From Nitrospinae bacterium RIFCSPLOWO2_12_FULL_45_22 (lineage in GTDB: Bacteria > 2-12-FULL-45-22): a DNA stretch of 9,529 bases. This document shows, piece by piece, positions 4,818 to 9,529 of the stretch. Each line of letters starts with the position of its first letter. Within the stretch, counting starts at the first letter, position 1. The position numbers were made by a program, and so were the translations under genes. The stretch lies in assembly GCA_001803565.1 (NCBI GenBank), contig MHDQ01000211.1:1-9529 (forward strand), given 5' to 3'. The notes beneath the pieces are model-generated. The model saw nothing but the letters and a program-made list of their open reading frames with translations, had not been told where the DNA came from and did no database searches.

Positions 4818-4998
4818 AGCCACCAAGGCACAAAGTCACTAAGGAATGGCAAAGGACCTGGATAGAGGCGAGCAAGCCTTCGGCCTAGAGGGCCTCAGCC
4901 CGAAGGCTCGATCACTACAAATTATTTTTTGGTTGTAATGGCAGAGCTTGCTCTGCATCATACATTTGACCCTTGGTGTCTTGGTGCCTTAGTGGCTA
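4818..4998. repeat. MITE-like intergenic element with 27-bp terminal inverted repeats
   Basis: The left end (4818-4844) starts AGCCACCAAGGCACAAAGTC and the right end (4972-4998) is its reverse complement at 23 of 27 positions. Inside are two more hairpins: AGCCTTCGG (4874-4882) against CCGAAGGCT further right, and the near-perfect palindrome GCAGAGCTTGCTCTGC at 4941-4956. No open frame in it looks real. It lies between the radical SAM start and the damaged VapC remnant, and its right end is about 20 bases from where the toxin sequence is lost. The 'CACCAAGGCACAAAGNCAC' terminal motif is common between genes in many environmental bacterial genomes, but I cannot name the mobilising enzyme. Confidence 0.7.
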
Positions 4999-5021
4999 AT
5001 AAAACTTCCCTGGGTGAACGA

Positions 5022-5051
5022 TTACTTGGCGTCGATGCAACGTTTGGGCAC
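5022..5051 (-). pseudogene. Remnant of a VapC-type PIN toxin gene (first codons only)
   Basis: Three bases after the antitoxin stop, a GTG codon preceded by GAGGGG starts a frame reading MPKRCIDAK and then stop. VapC/PIN toxins typically open with a short strand leading into I-D-A/T-N-V-I, where the aspartate is catalytic. Adding one base after GCCAA here would restore IDANVIV, after which all similarity ends within a few bases. The natural reading is that the 3' portion of the toxin was deleted, with a frameshift at the break, leaving the antitoxin orphaned. The segment is too short for certainty; the call rests on position, the ribosome-binding site and the IDA signature together. Confidence 0.5.
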
Positions 5052-5054
5052 AGA

Positions 5055-5321
5055 TTACCCCTCGTCACGGATGCGGCGTAAGTCTGCGGCAGAGTCAAAC
5101 TCTCCTTCCCATAGTTCAGCCACCTTATCACACTCGGCTAACCAAGCATCTACCTTCGCCAACCGTGACTTCGCCCCTTCCTTATTGTTTTCTTGTGTTG
5201 TAGCAACAAGAGCCAGATTAATCAACTGCTCGGAGATATGTGCCACTAGTTTGAGTTGTTCGTGCGGTGGCAGTTGAGCCACCTGTTGTTCCAGTTGCTC
5301 TAAAGTCATCTTGTTGCTCAT
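5055..5321 (-). CDS. VapB-like antitoxin (orphan)
   Basis: 88 residues. The N-terminal helix MTLEQLEQQVAQLPPHEQLK has the 'LPPEEQLKLVE' pattern of a common antitoxin family paired with PIN-domain toxins, and the C-terminus GEFDSAADLRRIRDEG carries the acidic/arginine tail expected to enter the toxin active site. A GAGGAG ribosome-binding site lies 7 bases before the ATG. It normally neutralises the VapC ribonuclease and represses its own operon. Here only the first codons of a toxin follow, so it may be a relic or a free antitoxin able to neutralise a related VapC elsewhere. It starts shortly after the attC-like site at 5361-5432, so it looks like the first gene of a truncated cassette. Confidence 0.75.
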   Translation of the reverse strand: MSNKMTLEQLEQQVAQLPPHEQLKLVAHISEQLINLALVATTQENNKEGAKSRLAKVDAWLAECDKVAELWEGEFDSAADLRRIRDEG

Positions 5322-5360
5322 CTTTGTTCTCCTCTATTTCTTTCTTAGGCTTGGCATTGC

Positions 5361-5432
5361 GCCTAACGGGCTGGCTAAACGAAGTTGCGAAGCATTTCCT
5401 ATAATTTTTTATCTTTTAGCCTGTTGTTAGCT
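5361..5432 (-). other. attC-like recombination site C
   Basis: Reading the minus strand, an R''-type box AGCTAAC (5432-5426) leads into arm GGCTAAA (5421-5415). A variable loop follows, then arm TTTAGCC (5379-5373), a 5-base spacer and R' box GTTAGGC (5367-5361), which fits GTTRRRY. The arms are perfect complements over 7 bases and the boxes pair over GCTAAC with mismatches. The stop codon of the 185-residue gene lies inside the R'' box, as is frequent in integron cassettes. The expected cut is between G (5367) and TT (5366). Confidence 0.68.
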
Positions 5433-6028
5433 GAAGTCAGATATATATTTCTTCTGTCCATAGCGTTCTAACATATCTTGCAAAATCTTATCATCTATTA
5501 CGGCTTTTACATAATTGTATAATCTTTTGTATTCAGATTTTAGCTCAGGGCAACTTTCCCAGACTTCATGATTGTTGATAATCGTTTGTATTTTACCATT
5601 TAAAATATCTACACCTGCCCAATCTTTAAGAATTTTAGGGCTGAGTAGCACCCAGGCAAAAAATCCTTCCCAGTATTTCCTATCCGGATCCGAAAGGGCA
5701 TCCCATGTTTTATCAATATAATCATGATCAATCCATACCATTTGCTCCTCAGCTTTGTCTGCCCCTTCTTCATTTCCTAATATTCGAATAGATTCTTTTA
5801 TCCAAGAAGGAAAAGGCTCGCAGAAATTCCAAGCTCTCCCATAGGCTTGGTACCAATCATGGTTTACAATCCTATGATTTGAACCCAAGAGTTCATGGGG
5901 TTTATCCTTTTCTTTATGAAGATCGAAATAAGGTCTTCCATAAGCGATTAAATCTATTACTGCATGTACCCATGCACTTGGCATTTTACAAATCCCCTTT
6001 TTCTTCCGTTAATCTGATTTTCAGCTAA
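5367..6028 (-). mobile_element. Integron-type gene cassette carrying one unknown gene
   Basis: The boundaries are set by the G|TT cut points of two attC-like sites. The cassette begins TTAGCTGAA at 6028 and its own R'' region near 5426-5435 reads TTCAGCTAAC, the exact reverse complement of GTTAGCTGAA. In the excised circle these two ends would form one matched attC, which is what cassette biology predicts and what chance would rarely give. About 660 bases, one gene, and a short leader (5985-6028) with an AGGGG ribosome-binding site. Confidence 0.7.
5427..5984 (-). CDS. Conserved-looking cassette protein of unknown function
   Basis: 185 residues; I do not recognise the family with confidence. 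There is no signal peptide and no clear membrane segment, so it is probably cytosolic. It is rich in W, Y and acidic residues and histidines cluster in the N-terminal third: H7 in PSAWVH, then H23, H30, H37 and H42 in NHDWYQAYG, and later IDHDYID (85-91). The spacing of H/D pairs could suit a metal-binding, mostly helical hydrolase, but that is only an inference. The ATG at 5984 follows an AGGGG site about 10 bases upstream, and the stop falls in the R'' box of attC site C. The coding region is visibly more AT-rich than slt or anmK, consistent with acquisition as a cassette. It stands alone without an antitoxin-like partner. Confidence 0.75.
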   Translation of the reverse strand: MPSAWVHAVIDLIAYGRPYFDLHKEKDKPHELLGSNHRIVNHDWYQAYGRAWNFCEPFPSWIKESIRILGNEEGADKAEEQMVWIDHDYIDKTWDALSDPDRKYWEGFFAWVLLSPKILKDWAGVDILNGKIQTIINNHEVWESCPELKSEYKRLYNYVKAVIDDKILQDMLERYGQKKYISDFS

Positions 6029-6089
6029 CGGTTTTGGCACAAAAGAAGCCTGAAGGGTTTGGATGGTAATCTTTTGCACCATGTTATCT
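6023..6089 (-). other. attC-like recombination site B
   Basis: Minus-strand order: R''-like AGATAAC (6089-6083), one spacer base, arm TGGTGCAAAAG (6081-6071), 25-base loop, arm CTTTTGTGCCA (6045-6035), 5-base spacer, R' box GTTAGCT (6029-6023). The arms pair over 11 positions with two G-T wobbles in the folded single strand. The spacer layout (1 base on one side, 5 on the other) matches attC site A. The R' box departs from GTTRRRY at one base. The site directly follows the hicA stop. Confidence 0.65.
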
Positions 6090-6094
6090 GCCTG
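6082..6094 (+). repeat. 13-bp direct repeat, copy 1 (TGTTATCTGCCTG)
   Basis: An exact second copy is at 6627-6639 in the same orientation. The two copies bracket the hicBA unit. On the minus strand this copy contains the R'' box of attC site B (CAGGCAGATAAC). Confidence 0.75.
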
Positions 6095-6108
6095 TTGCGG
6101 GCAGGGAT

Positions 6109-6321
6109 TTATAAAAGTTTTTTGAATTCTTCAATAGTTAGTCCAGCATCTTTTACCATACCGGCCATTGTGAAAGCATCCACGGGATTAACCCTGGGGA
6201 TGGTAATAATCCTTTCGCCGTTTGTCATTGTGATATGTTTACCTTTTCTTGCTATTCGGAAACCTGCTTTTTGAAATGCCCTCACTGCTCGCTGGTGGTT
6301 TATCCCTGATAATTTAGGCAT
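6109..6321 (-). CDS. hicA: HicA-type mRNA interferase toxin
   Basis: 70 residues, typical for HicA. The protein is basic with a double-stranded-RNA-binding-like fold, and the family's catalytic histidine fits H29 in the segment RKGKHITM (25-32); the conserved AFQKAGF (15-21) and GMVKDAGLT (53-61) segments are present. HicA cleaves mRNA and tmRNA and is blocked by HicB. Its ATG overlaps the hicB end by 8 bases (ATGCCTAA), giving coupled translation in the hicB-hicA order. The stop at 6109-6111 is 14 bases before the direct repeat and attC site B. No truncation or frameshift is visible, so the toxin appears intact. Confidence 0.9.
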   Translation of the reverse strand: MPKLSGINHQRAVRAFQKAGFRIARKGKHITMTNGERIITIPRVNPVDAFTMAGMVKDAGLTIEEFKKLL

Positions 6322-6514
6322 AAGATACTTCTACATAACGATACTCTTTGTCTTTGGTTAGCTCCTCAACGGTTTCTAAATATGATTGTATGGCATCTTT
6401 AATGTTTTCCAATGCTTCTTCTTCTGTTTTTCCTTGAGACCAGCAACCAGGCAGGCCAGGAACCCAGACAGAATAACCTTCTTCTGTTTTTTTGAGATTT
6501 ACTTTATATTTCAT
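6314..6514 (-). CDS. hicB: HicB-type antitoxin
   Basis: 66 residues from the ATG at 6514, which is 5 bases after a very strong AGGAGG site; a GTG two codons upstream would overlap that site and is less likely. The segment around GYSVWVPGLPGCWSQGKTEEEALENI is the classic HicB pattern (partial RNase-H-like fold: V-P-x-L-P-G-C...G-x-T-x-E-E-A). The protein ends soon after the fold, lacking a C-terminal helix-turn-helix or ribbon-helix-helix domain, so autoregulation may be weak or rely on the complex. It is the partner of the overlapping hicA. HicBA pairs are frequent cargo of chromosomal integron cassettes, which fits this context. Confidence 0.9.
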   Translation of the reverse strand: MKYKVNLKKTEEGYSVWVPGLPGCWSQGKTEEEALENIKDAIQSYLETVEELTKDKEYRYVEVSYA

Positions 6515-6626
6515 AGGCACCTCCTTAGTCTTTTTAATCTTTTAACCTATTTTACCCCAAAATGCTGATTTTGTTTACCAATAAATAGAAGGGCAAAGCC
6601 TTTGGGATAATTAATCTCAAACTCTC

Positions 6627-6639
6627 TGTTATCTGCCTG
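6627..6639 (+). repeat. 13-bp direct repeat, copy 2 (TGTTATCTGCCTG)
   Basis: Identical to 6082-6094 and located about 110 bases upstream of hicB. The rest of the interval 6515-6815 holds the hicB leader, this repeat, the dispersed repeat at 6708-6735 and the tail downstream of the DUF2442 gene. I see no gene in it, and no strong sigma-70 promoter apart from an isolated TAAAAT at about 6549-6554 on the minus strand. Confidence 0.7.
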
Positions 6640-6707
6640 AATTCTGTCCTTTTTCCCTATATGCCATAAGCCACGTTGATAAATGAACTGAGAATTTGTA
6701 ATAATGC

Positions 6708-6735
6708 AAGACCTGACCCCATTTTGTACTCACCC
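6708..6735 (-). repeat. Dispersed repeat copy 1 (GTGAGTA...AAATGGGGTCAGGTCTT)
   Basis: On the minus strand this segment reads GGGTGAGTAC, then AAAATGGGGTCAGGTCTT. A related copy at 7679-7705 reads GAGTGAGT, then AAATGGTGTCAGGCCT; the two align with a 3-base gap. 'TGGGGTCAGGTCTTG' sequences are often seen near REP-associated tyrosine transposases (IS200-like family), but no such transposase is in the window. Confidence 0.55.
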
Positions 6736-6814
6736 ACTGGGTAACAATATCGAATTTCATGGGCTTTCACCCAATCCCAACGACCTGGATTTTGCTTGGC
6801 ACGAGCAGCGACTG

Positions 6815-6821
6815 GTTAGGC
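6815..6821 (-). other. Isolated attC R''-like box GCCTAAC
   Basis: GCCTAAC matches RYYYAAC exactly and contains the DUF2442 gene stop codon, the same arrangement as at attC site C. I cannot find a matching L'/R' half downstream on the minus strand. It may be the remaining half of an attC site cut by the repeat at 6708-6735, or a chance match. Confidence 0.35.
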
Positions 6822-7082
6822 TATTGGCTGCATTCCTAATAAGTGGCGTACTTCAATGCCATCGTCTAAATCTTCCCAATAGATGGCAAAACCTCCTGGT
6901 TCAAGAGACCATTTGGCTCGTTGCTCTGGAGTGGCTTTTGCCAACCAATCTAACCACTCAACTTGGTCTATTGCTACACTGATTTCTCTGCCATCACTAA
7001 GGAAAATACAGAGTGTGTTGCCAACAAAATGGAGATTGGTTGCTCCAACCTCTTCTATCATTTTACGTGGTAAAGTAGCCAT
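6816..7082 (-). CDS. DUF2442 domain protein
   Basis: 88 residues. The pattern FLSDGREISVAIDQVEWL, ATPEQRAKWSLEPGGFAIYW and DLDDGIEVRHLL is the DUF2442 signature (L-x-D-G-R-x-I-x-V ... T-P-E-Q-R-A-x-W ... G-x-x-I-x-W-x-x-L-D-E-D-I). A GGAGGTG site just before the ATG supports this start, which lies inside the end of the DUF4160 gene (20-base overlap). DUF4160-DUF2442 pairs recur in bacterial genomes and mobile regions and are suspected toxin-antitoxin-like modules, but I know of no settled activity. The stop codon falls inside an attC-like R'' box. Confidence 0.85.
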   Translation of the reverse strand: MATLPRKMIEEVGATNLHFVGNTLCIFLSDGREISVAIDQVEWLDWLAKATPEQRAKWSLEPGGFAIYWEDLDDGIEVRHLLGMQPIA

Positions 7083-7296
7083 TCCACACCTCCAATAATC
7101 TATCCTGATTCTGCCGTGTTAACTTCAAAATACGGTTCAGTTCGGCTGGATTATAGCCATGATTGTATTCTACCACCACAGGCTGAAGCCAAATTTTAGC
7201 TTCATTTTCACCATATAAAACATGAACATGTGGCGGTTCGTTTATATCAGAAGAATAGAACCGAAATTTATAACCGTCAATTACACTTGTTGGCAT
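7063..7296 (-). CDS. DUF4160 domain protein
   Basis: 77 residues from the ATG at 7296. The family N-terminus (MPT...G-x-x-F-x-F-Y-S), the hallmark NEPPHVHV (24-31), EAKIWL (37-42) and the LTRQNQDRLLEVWNGYF tail identify DUF4160. The upstream alternative start (TTG at 7311) lies within the AAAGGTG ribosome-binding site and is rejected. The gene overlaps the DUF2442 gene by 20 bases, so the pair is translated together. The conserved histidine pair in HVH may bind metal or act catalytically, but function is not established. It is one of several two-gene small-protein modules in this array. Confidence 0.85.
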   Translation of the reverse strand: MPTSVIDGYKFRFYSSDINEPPHVHVLYGENEAKIWLQPVVVEYNHGYNPAELNRILKLTRQNQDRLLEVWNGYFTT

Positions 7297-7302
7297 GTAA
7301 AC

Positions 7303-7397
7303 ACCTTTCAATTTTGGCTGAACCCTTTTGTTTATATTGTGTCAGGACTTTCGCCGTTTGCCTACCGGGTTTATGGGCCGTACCCTCACGTCAAAGC
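7303..7397 (-). other. Unexplained possibly structured stretch before DUF4160
   Basis: Between the broken DUF433 gene and DUF4160 I see no convincing gene. Reading the minus strand, CCGCTA and TAGCGG (just to the right, about 7409-7436) can pair around a TGG/CCA stem. Further on, CAGG (about 7401-7404) and CCTG (7342-7345) bracket a G-rich segment with CCCGGTAGGCAAACGGCG and GAAAGTCC. Fragmentary resemblance to group II intron text is too weak to call. It could be a leader RNA, an eroded attC or element debris. Confidence 0.25.
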
Positions 7398-7533
7398 TCA
7401 CCTGCCGCTATGGAGCACCAGCGGAGTAGCGGTCAGAATGAGGCTAACCGGAATTCTGGTTCCTTTGATCCGTGGTTTACCTCGGAGCACATCCCGGCGT
7501 GCTCACAATATAATCTCTCCAATTTGCTTGCAT
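7398..7533 (-). pseudogene. DUF433 gene, frameshifted and 3'-truncated
   Basis: An AGGAGG site 6 bases before the ATG at 7533 starts MQANWRDYIVSTPG, then hits a stop at 7477. From 7493 another frame continues the same protein as DVLRGKPRIKGTRIPVSLIL before running into unrelated residues and a stop at 7398. W-R-D-x-I followed by G-K-P-x-I-x-G-T-R-I-P-V is the DUF433 core. Removing one G from the GGG at 7494-7496 restores STPDVLRGKP. The last half of the domain is missing. DUF433 proteins are commonly the antitoxin-like partner of DUF5615 PIN-like proteins, and no such partner remains here. It is the first gene after attC site A. A sequencing error could explain the frameshift but not the missing C-terminus. 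Confidence 0.72.
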
Positions 7534-7552
7534 ATTACCCTCCTGCGATGGC

Positions 7553-7637
7553 GCTTAACGTTCCCAGCATAAAAGAAGCTCGGCGAGGCAAAAATTTGGG
7601 TGAGCCCGAAGGGCAAACCTTTTATGCTGTGTTATAC
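7553..7637 (-). other. attC-like recombination site A (best example)
   Basis: Minus-strand order: R'' box GTATAAC (7637-7631), one spacer base, arm CAGCATAAAAG (7629-7619), loop with a GCCCTTCGGGC hairpin, arm CTTTTATGCTG (7575-7565), 5-base spacer, R' box GTTAAGC (7559-7553), which fits GTTRRRY exactly. The arms are perfect 11-bp complements, and outside the boxes GGCG pairs with CGCC. A TAA stop of a short upstream open frame falls in the R'' box, suggesting a lost cassette gene ended here. The recombination point would be at 7559/7558. Confidence 0.8.
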
Positions 7638-7678
7638 GCCGTGCCGTGCCCCTTTTTTGGGCTGTAGCCAAAGTGAAA

Positions 7679-7734: not shown

Positions 7735-9529
7735 TCAGGCATGGGTTTGATGTAATCTCTGCAATGAGCTGCGAACCACGGACAACGAGTATTCGTCACC
7801 GTATTTCTTAAAGAGCCCTTCTGCCTGCAAGTACAGCCTTTCTGCTTCATCAAATTGCCGTCTCTCCTGGGCGATCGTTCCCAACTGGTGTAAAGTGCTT
7901 GCCTGGCCGTATTCGTTTTTCAACTTCTCCTCTATTGCCAAACTCTTGCAATACCATTGCTCTGCTTCATCAAATTGCCGTCTCTCCTCGGCGATCATTC
8001 CCAACTGGTGTAAAGTGCTTGCCTGGCCGTATTCGTCTTTCAACTTCTCCTCTATTGCCAGACTCTTGCGATACCATTTCTCTGCTTCATCAAATTGCCG
8101 TCTCTCCCCGGCGATCATTCCCAGATTGTGCCACAATGAGGCACACAGATCTTCTGCCCCGGCAAGAGGCACCCCTTGACCGTCTGTTGCCTTCCTTTCA
8201 ATCTCCAGATTCAGCAGCTCAGATTCCGACCACCGACTTTGCCTGACTAACATCTCTGCCATCCCCAGTGATATGCGGTTGAGCGCATCCCACATCCGGC
8301 GCCGCAAGCCAAGACGGATTGCATACCGAAGATTCTGTTCTTCCAGCCGCACAACTGGCATCGCTGCTTCTGCATTTGTCCTAAGTTGTTGTTGCAGTAA
8401 CTGACTTAAATCGCCACACACATCCACAAATTTCTGCTCCAGCCATTCCATATCTTCAGCGTATGTTGTCTGCAATATCTCGTGAAAGAACCACGGAAGC
8501 GCCGGATGGATTTTATACAGACCAGGGCCTAGCTTGTGCAACAAGCCAATCTCTGCAGATTGGTCAAGCATTCGCCCCCAGGCATTTGAATCTAATCCCT
8601 CCAGTAATTCAGGAGCTGAATCATCATCGCAGATATAAGCCAGCACATCTGCATTTACAAATCCCTGAAACATTCCCAGCACACCCAGACGACCACGCAG
8701 TGATTCATCCAGGCTGTCCAGACGATATTCAAGCGAGGCGGTGAGTGAGTGTTCTCTGCCTTGCTCCCTGTCATCCCTGGGGAGCTTAGCTGCTCCTGTC
8801 TGTAAGGCAGATAACAGGTCATCAGGCTCAATTCGTGCCAGCTCCGGCAGGATCGCCTGTATGGCCAATGGATTCCCCTGAAGATAATTTAGTAGTTTGT
8901 CATATGGTTTGAGCCTCTGGCGGTCTATACCTGCTCGATAGAGAACTTTTCCTGCCAGCTCCGTTGCATCCCTTTGATTCAGTCCGCGCAATGTTATAAG
9001 TTGATAGCATCTACCAAGCCATCCTTCCTCTCTCCTGCTGGTGAGGATAACCTTTGTTGCTCCACCGCTCAAGGCTCGCAAGAAATCCTTAAGCTCCTGC
9101 TGTTCCTCTTTCTTCCACACCGATGGTGTTCCTTTCGGAAATCCTGCTACTGGCTCGAAATTGTCCCAGATCATCAGACATGGTATCTTCCGCAGGATAT
9201 CCTTTGTCAGTTGACGGCGTTGGATTGGATCCAAAAGATGCCATTCAGTGCCAGTTTGAGCTTTGATCACCTCTCTAAATACATCACCGATTTGGTTACA
9301 AACATGGTCCAGAGTGATGTAAGATTCAAAGGAGAAGAAGAATATCGGACCGTCCAGAGCACCTGTCTCCGCCCACCACCTGGCAAATCCCACAGCAGTT
9401 GTTGTCTTACCAACCCCGGCCATTGCCTGTAGAAGGACTATTGTCTCCCGCTCAAATGCCTTTTCCAATCCCCAGATATCCGCGTCCCTGCCAATAAAGC
9501 CGTAATCCGGCTGCTCTGGCAGGTCAATC
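7735..9529 (-). CDS. STAND (NB-ARC-like) NTPase with C-terminal TPR repeats, partial
   Basis: The frame stays open to the right edge, so the N-terminus is missing. The TTG at 9468 is not taken as the start because coding continues upstream through YGFIGRDADIWGLEKAF, the usual lead-in to this NTPase class. Counting from that TTG: P-loop AGVGKTT (17-23), Walker B CLMIWDNFE (97-105), sensor-like VILTSRRE (140-147), GNPLA (198-202), a winged-helix-like region to about 330 with YKIHP (318-322), then TPRs (about 440-577) in 40-residue units. STAND proteins are switch NTPases: ligand binding by the repeats triggers ATP-dependent oligomerisation and turns on an N-terminal effector. Related proteins often carry a CHAT, TIR or nuclease effector in the part outside this window. 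Roles include phage defence and signalling; nothing visible decides between them. Confidence 0.88.
   Translation of the reverse strand, partial: IDLPEQPDYGFIGRDADIWGLEKAFERETIVLLQAMAGVGKTTTAVGFARWWAETGALDGPIFFFSFESYITLDHVCNQIGDVFREVIKAQTGTEWHLLDPIQRRQLTKDILRKIPCLMIWDNFEPVAGFPKGTPSVWKKEEQQELKDFLRALSGGATKVILTSRREEGWLGRCYQLITLRGLNQRDATELAGKVLYRAGIDRQRLKPYDKLLNYLQGNPLAIQAILPELARIEPDDLLSALQTGAAKLPRDDREQGREHSLTASLEYRLDSLDESLRGRLGVLGMFQGFVNADVLAYICDDDSAPELLEGLDSNAWGRMLDQSAEIGLLHKLGPGLYKIHPALPWFFHEILQTTYAEDMEWLEQKFVDVCGDLSQLLQQQLRTNAEAAMPVVRLEEQNLRYAIRLGLRRRMWDALNRISLGMAEMLVRQSRWSESELLNLEIERKATDGQGVPLAGAEDLCASLWHNLGMIAGERRQFDEAEKWYRKSLAIEEKLKDEYGQASTLHQLGMIAEERRQFDEAEQWYCKSLAIEEKLKNEYGQASTLHQLGTIAQERRQFDEAERLYLQAEGLFKKYGDEYSLSVVRSSLQRLHQTHA
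7841..8120 (-). repeat. 120-bp tandem repeats encoding TPR units
   Basis: Units 7841-7960 and 7961-8080 differ at about 6 of 120 bases. A third copy begins at 8081 and matches for about 40 bases before diverging. Each encodes one 40-residue TPR-type unit (ERRQFDEAE...KSLAIEEKL...EYGQASTLHQLG). Such near-identity points to recent duplication or gene conversion in the sensor part of the STAND protein. Confidence 0.85.

Follow-up and report, generated by a model that had tools for sequence, protein, structure and literature searches.

The 9,529-nucleotide stretch analysed in this work (the window) comes from Nitrospinae bacterium RIFCSPLOWO2_12_FULL_45_22 and raises the question of which recombination system assembled the row of small genes that it carries, several of them followed by inverted-repeat sites resembling the attC sites of integrons. 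The window is contig C211 of a metagenome-assembled genome (MAG) of 3.67 Mb and 321 contigs that represents an isolated lineage; C numbers denote contigs of this genome, L numbers loci and G numbers other genomes. The original prediction, made from the sequence of the window, described an integron cassette array without integrase, packed with small toxin-antitoxin-type modules. The cluster, its richness in such modules and the absence of an integrase from the window were confirmed, several integrases being present elsewhere in the genome, but the classical integron implied by that description was not. From the sequence comparisons presented below, the window is very probably an orphan cassette cluster of an integron family whose XerA/IntI-like tyrosine recombinase is devoid of the I2 insertion of integron integrases (IntI). 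Both ends of the 9.5-kb contig are assembly ends, and between them there are three sites of the new family, two remnants of canonical sites and no recombinase gene.

Inverted-repeat sites of the window

A structure scan for an R'' box (NNNYAAC), an inner stem and an R' box (GTTRRNY) was carried out on both strands. Its top three results in the window, all on the minus strand and with scores of 34.0, 34.0 and 26.5, were the three predicted sites, which are real and located exactly where they had been placed (7637-7553, 6089-6023 and 5432-5361); in a control with 60 one-strand Markov shuffles the best score was 32.9 and only two values were above 26. Three covariance models were used. Model R1 includes nine class 1 attC sites from plasmid arrays and eleven sites of the genome's own IntI-type arrays. 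Model R2 was made from the six odd sites first noticed (the three of the window and those of C55, C202 and C117), which have a common layout and common loop motifs. Model R3 was trained with 13 sites located behind the new recombinase on eight contigs, none of them the window contig; four of these sites belong to C55 and C202 and the remaining nine to other genomes. The three sites are the following:

7553-7637, minus strand: site 1, attC-like, new family (R3, 66.3 bits, E 2e-14)
6023-6089, minus strand: site 2, attC-like, new family, at the end of the HicBA cassette (R3, 58.5 bits, E 2e-12)
5361-5432, minus strand: site 3, attC-like, new family (R3, 22.2 bits, E 1e-3; R1, 14.1 bits)

Run on the window with filters off, R3 matched all three sites on the minus strand although none had been used in its training (66, 58 and 22 bits, with E values of 2e-14, 2e-12 and 1e-3). 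With R1, which detected 45 sites at E < 0.01 in the whole genome, site 1 gave no match, site 2 reached 6 bits (E = 5.6) and site 3 reached 14 bits (E = 0.075). The expectation that at least two of the three sites would score as attC on the minus strand thus failed for canonical attC, with R1 as surrogate model, and was borne out for the new site family, with R3 as surrogate. No match to R3 at E <= 0.05 was obtained on class 1 arrays or on the IntI-type arrays of the genome, and 18 loci that carry the new recombinase gave none to R1 at E <= 1. Further copies were found with R2 on C313, C55, C48 and C101, the C313 copy, absent from the training of this model, scoring 67 bits. In the new loci the R3 matches lie on the strand of the recombinase and downstream of its gene.

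Site 1 is composed of R'' GTATAAC, one A, a stem of 11-12 base pairs (bp), a loop with CCCAAAT, the other arm of the stem, GGAAC and R' GTTAAGC. The arrangement of R'', complementary arms, loop and R' that had been proposed as common to the three sites is real, but the spacers of sites 1 and 2 are asymmetric (1 nucleotide on the left and 5 on the right); those of site 3 measure 4 on the left and 5 on the right, and the R' of site 2 (GTTAGCT) does not strictly fit the GTTRRRY box attributed to all three. In the sites behind the recombinase, R'' is separated by usually one A from a 12-bp stem enclosing a loop, and about five bases lie between the stem and R'. The stem, gapless over 12 bp in each of the 13 training sites and likewise in sites 1 and 2, is 98% paired in the training set, and compensatory changes were found in 9 of the 12 stem pairs; when the partners were slid by 1-3 columns as a control, 28-42% of the cells paired. 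Covariation was a far stronger signal than the folding of each site singly against shuffles, which was mostly not significant (z about 0 to -2). No extrahelical bases are present in the stems of sites 1 and 2, which are perfect over 11-12 bp; these sites are therefore not canonical attC but belong to a separate site family tied to a recombinase without the IntI-specific domain. The Rfam search gave no match at the gathering threshold or at E <= 1, and so no group II intron or known RNA is present at the sites.

The recombinase, its attI-like element and the cassette rule

The XerA/IntI-like tyrosine recombinase is encoded on C55, where the gene is intact, and on C202, where it is N-terminally truncated. 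The C55 protein exceeds the cut-off of NF040815 (234 bits versus 220), as do the products of two further genes of the genome, on C65 and C77, and the recombinase tied to the new sites remains below the cut-off of the integron integrase model TIGR02249 (225.6 bits versus 265). Alignment with IntI1 and with the genome's own IntI revealed that the whole IntI insertion is absent, and comparison with the solved integron integrase 2a3v gave 24 residues where IntI has 66. In the phylogenetic tree the new recombinases group with IntI, apart from the two Xer proteins of the genome (100/99).

In both C55 and C202 the recombinase gene is located directly 5' of a common element (...GTCGTCTGTGAACnAGTTA...); the reverse complement of its final seven bases is identical to the R'' that ends the first cassette, found 589 bp (C55) and 2155 bp (C202) away. 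This attI-like element, consisting of two palindromes followed by GAACnAGTTA just 3' of the recombinase gene, was seen in most closer relatives whose sequence extends far enough downstream (C55, C202, L081, L082, L084, L085, L086, L089, L092, G261, G162 and G169). The sequence of the palindromes varies between loci and their symmetry is kept, and the R' of the element corresponds exactly to the R'' of the first cassette in 10 of 12 cases. A tyrosine recombinase with an attI-like site, the feature that characterises integrons in the broad sense, is thus present in the family and on C55 and C202 of this genome, and no attI was found in the window.

In integrons, the R'' of a cassette site corresponds to the TTNNNN with which that cassette begins and which is equivalent to the R' of the preceding site. 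Among 31 junctions from 13 loci of the new family, 22 had an R'' corresponding exactly to the preceding R' and none deviated by more than one base (at least three of four positions counted), with the qualification that the first sites of C55, C202, L084, L085 and G261 were located or relocated through the expected R'', which favours those junctions; all of these except the first G261 site were also strongly found by the structure scan or the models. R'' agreed with its own R' in only 3 of 29 comparisons, and none of 50,000 permutations reached the observed fit. In the canonical array of C304 the same rule holds (4/5). Within the window, the cassette between sites 2 and 3 starts with GTTAGCT, of which its terminal R'' (AGCTAAC) is the exact reverse complement, and the other junctions are unreadable or non-matching.

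Cassette genes and neighbouring features

The genes of the cluster, all on the minus strand, are the following:

7398-7533, minus strand: remnant of a DUF433 antitoxin-like gene, frameshifted and with its 3' part lost
7063-7311, minus strand: DUF4160 cassette gene (PF13711, E 1e-19)
6816-7082, minus strand: DUF2442 cassette gene (PF10387, E 2e-11)
6314-6520, minus strand: HicB antitoxin cassette gene (PF15919, E 6e-11)
6109-6321, minus strand: HicA toxin cassette gene (PF07927, E 7e-7)
5427-5984, minus strand: cassette gene for a protein of 185 amino acids (aa) without functional assignment, between site 2 and site 3
5055-5321, minus strand: gene for an 88-aa antitoxin-like protein in the last cassette, which is truncated and has no attC (Unstab_antitox E 0.04, below cut-off)

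Pfam supports the predicted identities of HicA, HicB, DUF4160 and DUF2442. The DUF433 assignment agrees with a PF04255 match of the joined peptide (E 4e-7, covering only profile positions 4-26 of 56), but what had been listed as cargo is a frameshifted and truncated remnant. The VapB label given to the 88-aa protein is weak, its Unstab_antitox match (E = 0.04) being below the cut-off, and it gains support from a homologue in L084 that is followed by a PIN-like gene. No match to Pfam, NCBIfam or PADLOC was obtained for the 185-aa protein, which has no relative among viral contigs and no second copy in its own genome.

The array is bordered by a dispersed repeat of 176 bp (4850-5025) with arms like ctaaggcaccaagacaccaag, which shows 98.9% identity to the sequence at the end of contig C117 (L068:9809-9984). 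Another inverted repeat (103-222; ttcaccgcagaggcacagag / ctccgcgtctctgcggtaaa) is similar to dispersed repeats in other bacterial genomes. Positions 7735-9528 encode a NACHT/AAA-type protein with C-terminal tetratricopeptide repeats, the gene being open at the contig end and containing two 120-bp tandem repeats that are 95% identical (7841-8080). The comparison set includes one other genome from the same order, the remaining relatives sharing only the domain rank; at the radical-SAM locus of this same-order genome no AnmK, transglycosylase or NACHT neighbours were seen.

Distribution and shared cassettes

R3-type sites were present in 34 of the 386 genomes searched, across many families. Relatives of the recombinase (54-73% identity) were found in MAGs labelled Thermoanaerobaculaceae, WOR-3/Stahlbacteria, Deltaproteobacteria, Acetothermia and Firmicutes, and more of them in anonymous genomes; a search of viral contigs gave none, and a search of phage only two weak matches. 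When 17 genomes were searched with TIGR02249, IntI over the cut-off was detected only in the window's own genome and in none of the other 16. G261, which is a single contig, has the new recombinase and no IntI over the cut-off.

Sites and cassettes of the window have counterparts in these loci. Site 1 is 86% identical over 85 bp to C313:5788-5876 in the same genome and, across 102 bp, 78% identical to the third of the sites in L085, a locus from Acetothermia, and similar sites also occur in L085, G262, G002 and G162. In L089 a HicB-HicA-like pair is second in the array behind the recombinase, and the site at its end is 82% identical over 85 bp to site 2 of the window; G261 has a similar HicBA-like pair, with an end site 75% identical to site 2 over 124 bp. 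The start of a cassette in L084 matches that of the last cassette of the window (94 bp at 78% DNA identity), its antitoxin-like protein is 41% identical over 87 aa to the 88-aa protein, and a PIN-like gene (PIN judged by eye) comes next. The occurrence of HicBA-like and VapB-like modules in unrelated MAGs suggests a separate cassette pool that moves between phyla.

Comparable rows of genes on plasmids from cultured Bacteroidota begin with recombinases that are more distantly related (36-38% identity). Plasmid 1 of Rufibacter tibetensis 1351 carries eight successive cassettes in which the R'' rule is exact at five junctions and one base off at three, and its sites are too divergent for R3. At least one such array is therefore carried by a plasmid of a cultured organism, which makes experiments possible. 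In the plasmid of Chryseobacterium sp. SNU WT5 (L152), two palindromic sites of about 165 nucleotides (8107-8294 and 10202-10389), 97% identical, are located after the recombinase, with a second GTTGGGA-bounded hairpin before each, and would represent a composite site type.

Classical integrons of the same genome and alternative explanations

The genome has two bona fide integron integrases, on C304 and C243 (TIGR02249, 453 and 468 bits; cut-off 265), together with a truncated IntI on C136 and several IntI fragments. The two classical integrons (L009 on C304, L010 on C243) include one IntI with a long N-terminal extension (454 aa) and one HigBA-like pair as a cassette. The truncated IntI of C136 (L013, 9794-10552) has an N-terminus similar to the N-terminal domain found in the C55 recombinase (TFPYSPDHIAKIKTIKDHRWHPEEKYWSF), and the two integrase types might have this domain in common. 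In the window, two canonical-type sites had been overlooked:

6775-6821, minus strand: short canonical-type attC after the DUF4160-DUF2442 genes (R'' GCCTAAC, R' GTTGGGA)
7389-7450, minus strand: 3' part of a decayed canonical attC (R1, 11.1 bits; R' degenerated to GTGAGGG)

The first one (6821-6775) is the top R1 match of the window (17.4 bits, E 0.013), and an 88% copy of the region 6729-6821 is found on C17 (L077:581-673); the second one (7450-7389) is 90% identical over 52 bp to a strong canonical attC of C17 (12536-12607). These remnants suggest that both integron types of the genome took part in building the cluster.

They are also what would be expected if the window were an ordinary cluster of attC sites lacking integron integrases (CALIN), that is, a decayed classical integron whose cassettes were captured by the IntI of C304 or C243 and whose odd sites are divergent attC. 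The two IntI over the cut-off, the 45 canonical attC of the genome and the R boxes and cassette rule, alike in both systems, agree with this explanation, which we nevertheless regard as improbable and have rejected on the evidence of the canonical model, the recombinase and the stems: with the canonical model site 1 goes undetected and sites 2 and 3 score weakly, the recombinase immediately upstream of this type of site is a different one and has an attI-like element of its own, no IntI over the cut-off was detected in 16 other genomes that carry this recombinase or such sites, and the stems lack the extrahelical bases that the I2 helix of IntI docks.

It could also be argued that the XerA-like gene is a bystander, active in chromosome resolution or as an IS91-type accessory recombinase, which was captured beside the arrays, and that IntI moves these in trans. 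Two members of the wider recombinase family (G087 and G209) do lie beside genes with an IS91-type zinc-binding motif, with no attI-like element, and TnpF-like genes are included among the plasmid relatives. This role is very unlikely, since in the array-bearing loci the gene is followed immediately by a conserved attI-like element, with an R' equal to the R'' of the first cassette in 10/12 cases, genomes with the XerA-like gene lack IntI over the cut-off, and the attI palindromes differ between loci yet stay palindromic. That the sites are dispersed palindromic repeats of the miniature inverted-repeat transposable element (MITE) or repetitive extragenic palindrome (REP) type, or terminators, is hardly credible and was rejected, because, despite the similar site 1-like copies on several contigs and the position of the sites just 3' of genes, R'' repeats the first bases of the cassette to which it belongs, not the R' of its own site (a strong objection), the sites lie downstream of the recombinase on its strand, the stem arms covary and there is no T-run.

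An orphan cluster of the I2-less family remains the preferred reading, and several observations weigh against it. The window contains neither attI nor recombinase, so that its link to the family is drawn through homology of sites and cassettes, and the training of R3 included four sites of the window's own genome (three of C55 and one of C202). Site 3 reaches only 22 bits with R3, and the start of the HicBA cassette does not match its own R'', a junction that would have been mutated or rearranged. The split between the new recombinases and IntI is weak (75/48), and their position may be sister to IntI or on its stem. The HARP match of the N-terminus (18.5 bits) is under the cut-off of 25, and the AlphaFold model, built with five sequences, is poor (mean predicted local distance difference test score of 60); no structural claim was built on this model, with which Foldseek ranked XerA and IntI first, XerA being the best. 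The relatives are mostly MAGs, and the recombination activity attributed to the family is deduced from sequence.

Proposed mechanism

The recombinase, either that of C55 acting in trans or a lost neighbour, would integrate and excise the cassettes. Circular cassettes would be integrated at attI and joined at G^TT, a process whose footprint is an R'' that copies the GTTNNNN opening the same cassette. Since compensatory changes preserve the stem, the site would be recognised in the form of a folded strand. The asymmetry of the spacers (1 versus 5 nucleotides) might set the strand, replacing extrahelical bases, and the HARP-like N-terminal domain may, as a guess, replace I2 in helping to bind the folded site. 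The lack of extrahelical bases fits the lack of I2, since I2 docks such bases in IntI (PMC7790495). The cargo, mostly small toxin-antitoxin-type modules, would stabilise a cluster without adjacent recombinase, and that of the window may be either served in trans by C55 or a relic.

A wider proposal, to which we give even chances, is that of a second, I2-less integron lineage, sister or ancestral to IntI and present in candidate phyla and Bacteroidota plasmids, which would capture cassettes through structured attC-like sites with a compact recombinase bearing a HARP-like domain that binds DNA structures, and exchange them with the classical integrons of the same genome. Integrons without I2 would make the origin of integron integrases directly testable.

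Comparison with known systems

IntegronFinder requires the IntI-specific domain (PMC9668308) and integron surveys select integrases by it (PMC9668308, PMC2426708, PMC9024848), I2 having been reported to occur in IntI alone and to be indispensable for cassette capture (PMC7790495). In one classification the insertion is 'not fully conserved' in an integron-like subgroup (PMC8138268), and therefore related proteins may sit there with their arrays unnoticed. Current integron surveys would overlook an I2-less recombinase accompanied by attI, attC-like sites and cassette arrays. No description of an I2-less integron family was found in the open PubMed Central full-text literature, subscription papers and preprints being outside this scope, and within that literature the family is apparently undescribed.

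The new family shares with XerA (NF040815) the same compact catalytic domain, the C55 protein being over the cut-off of that model. Xer recombinases act at dif; unlike them, the new recombinases adjoin attI and cassette arrays and group in the tree with IntI. The repeats of Vibrio-type sedentary chromosomal integrons are comparable in that homogeneous sites are dispersed after many small genes, and those sites are canonical attC served by IntI. With classical integrons and CALIN the family has in common an attI next to the gene of a tyrosine recombinase, arrays in which small cassettes with R'' and R' boxes all point one way, G^TT-type junctions and the same insertion rule, toxin-antitoxin cargo and orphan clusters. 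It differs from classical integrons in a recombinase without the IntI-specific insertion, which may carry a HARP-like N-terminal domain and whose gene is co-oriented with the cassettes and has attI at its 3' end, and in sites that are missed by the canonical attC model and that have a perfect stem of 11-12 bp without extrahelical bases, asymmetric 1/5 spacers and conserved loop motifs.

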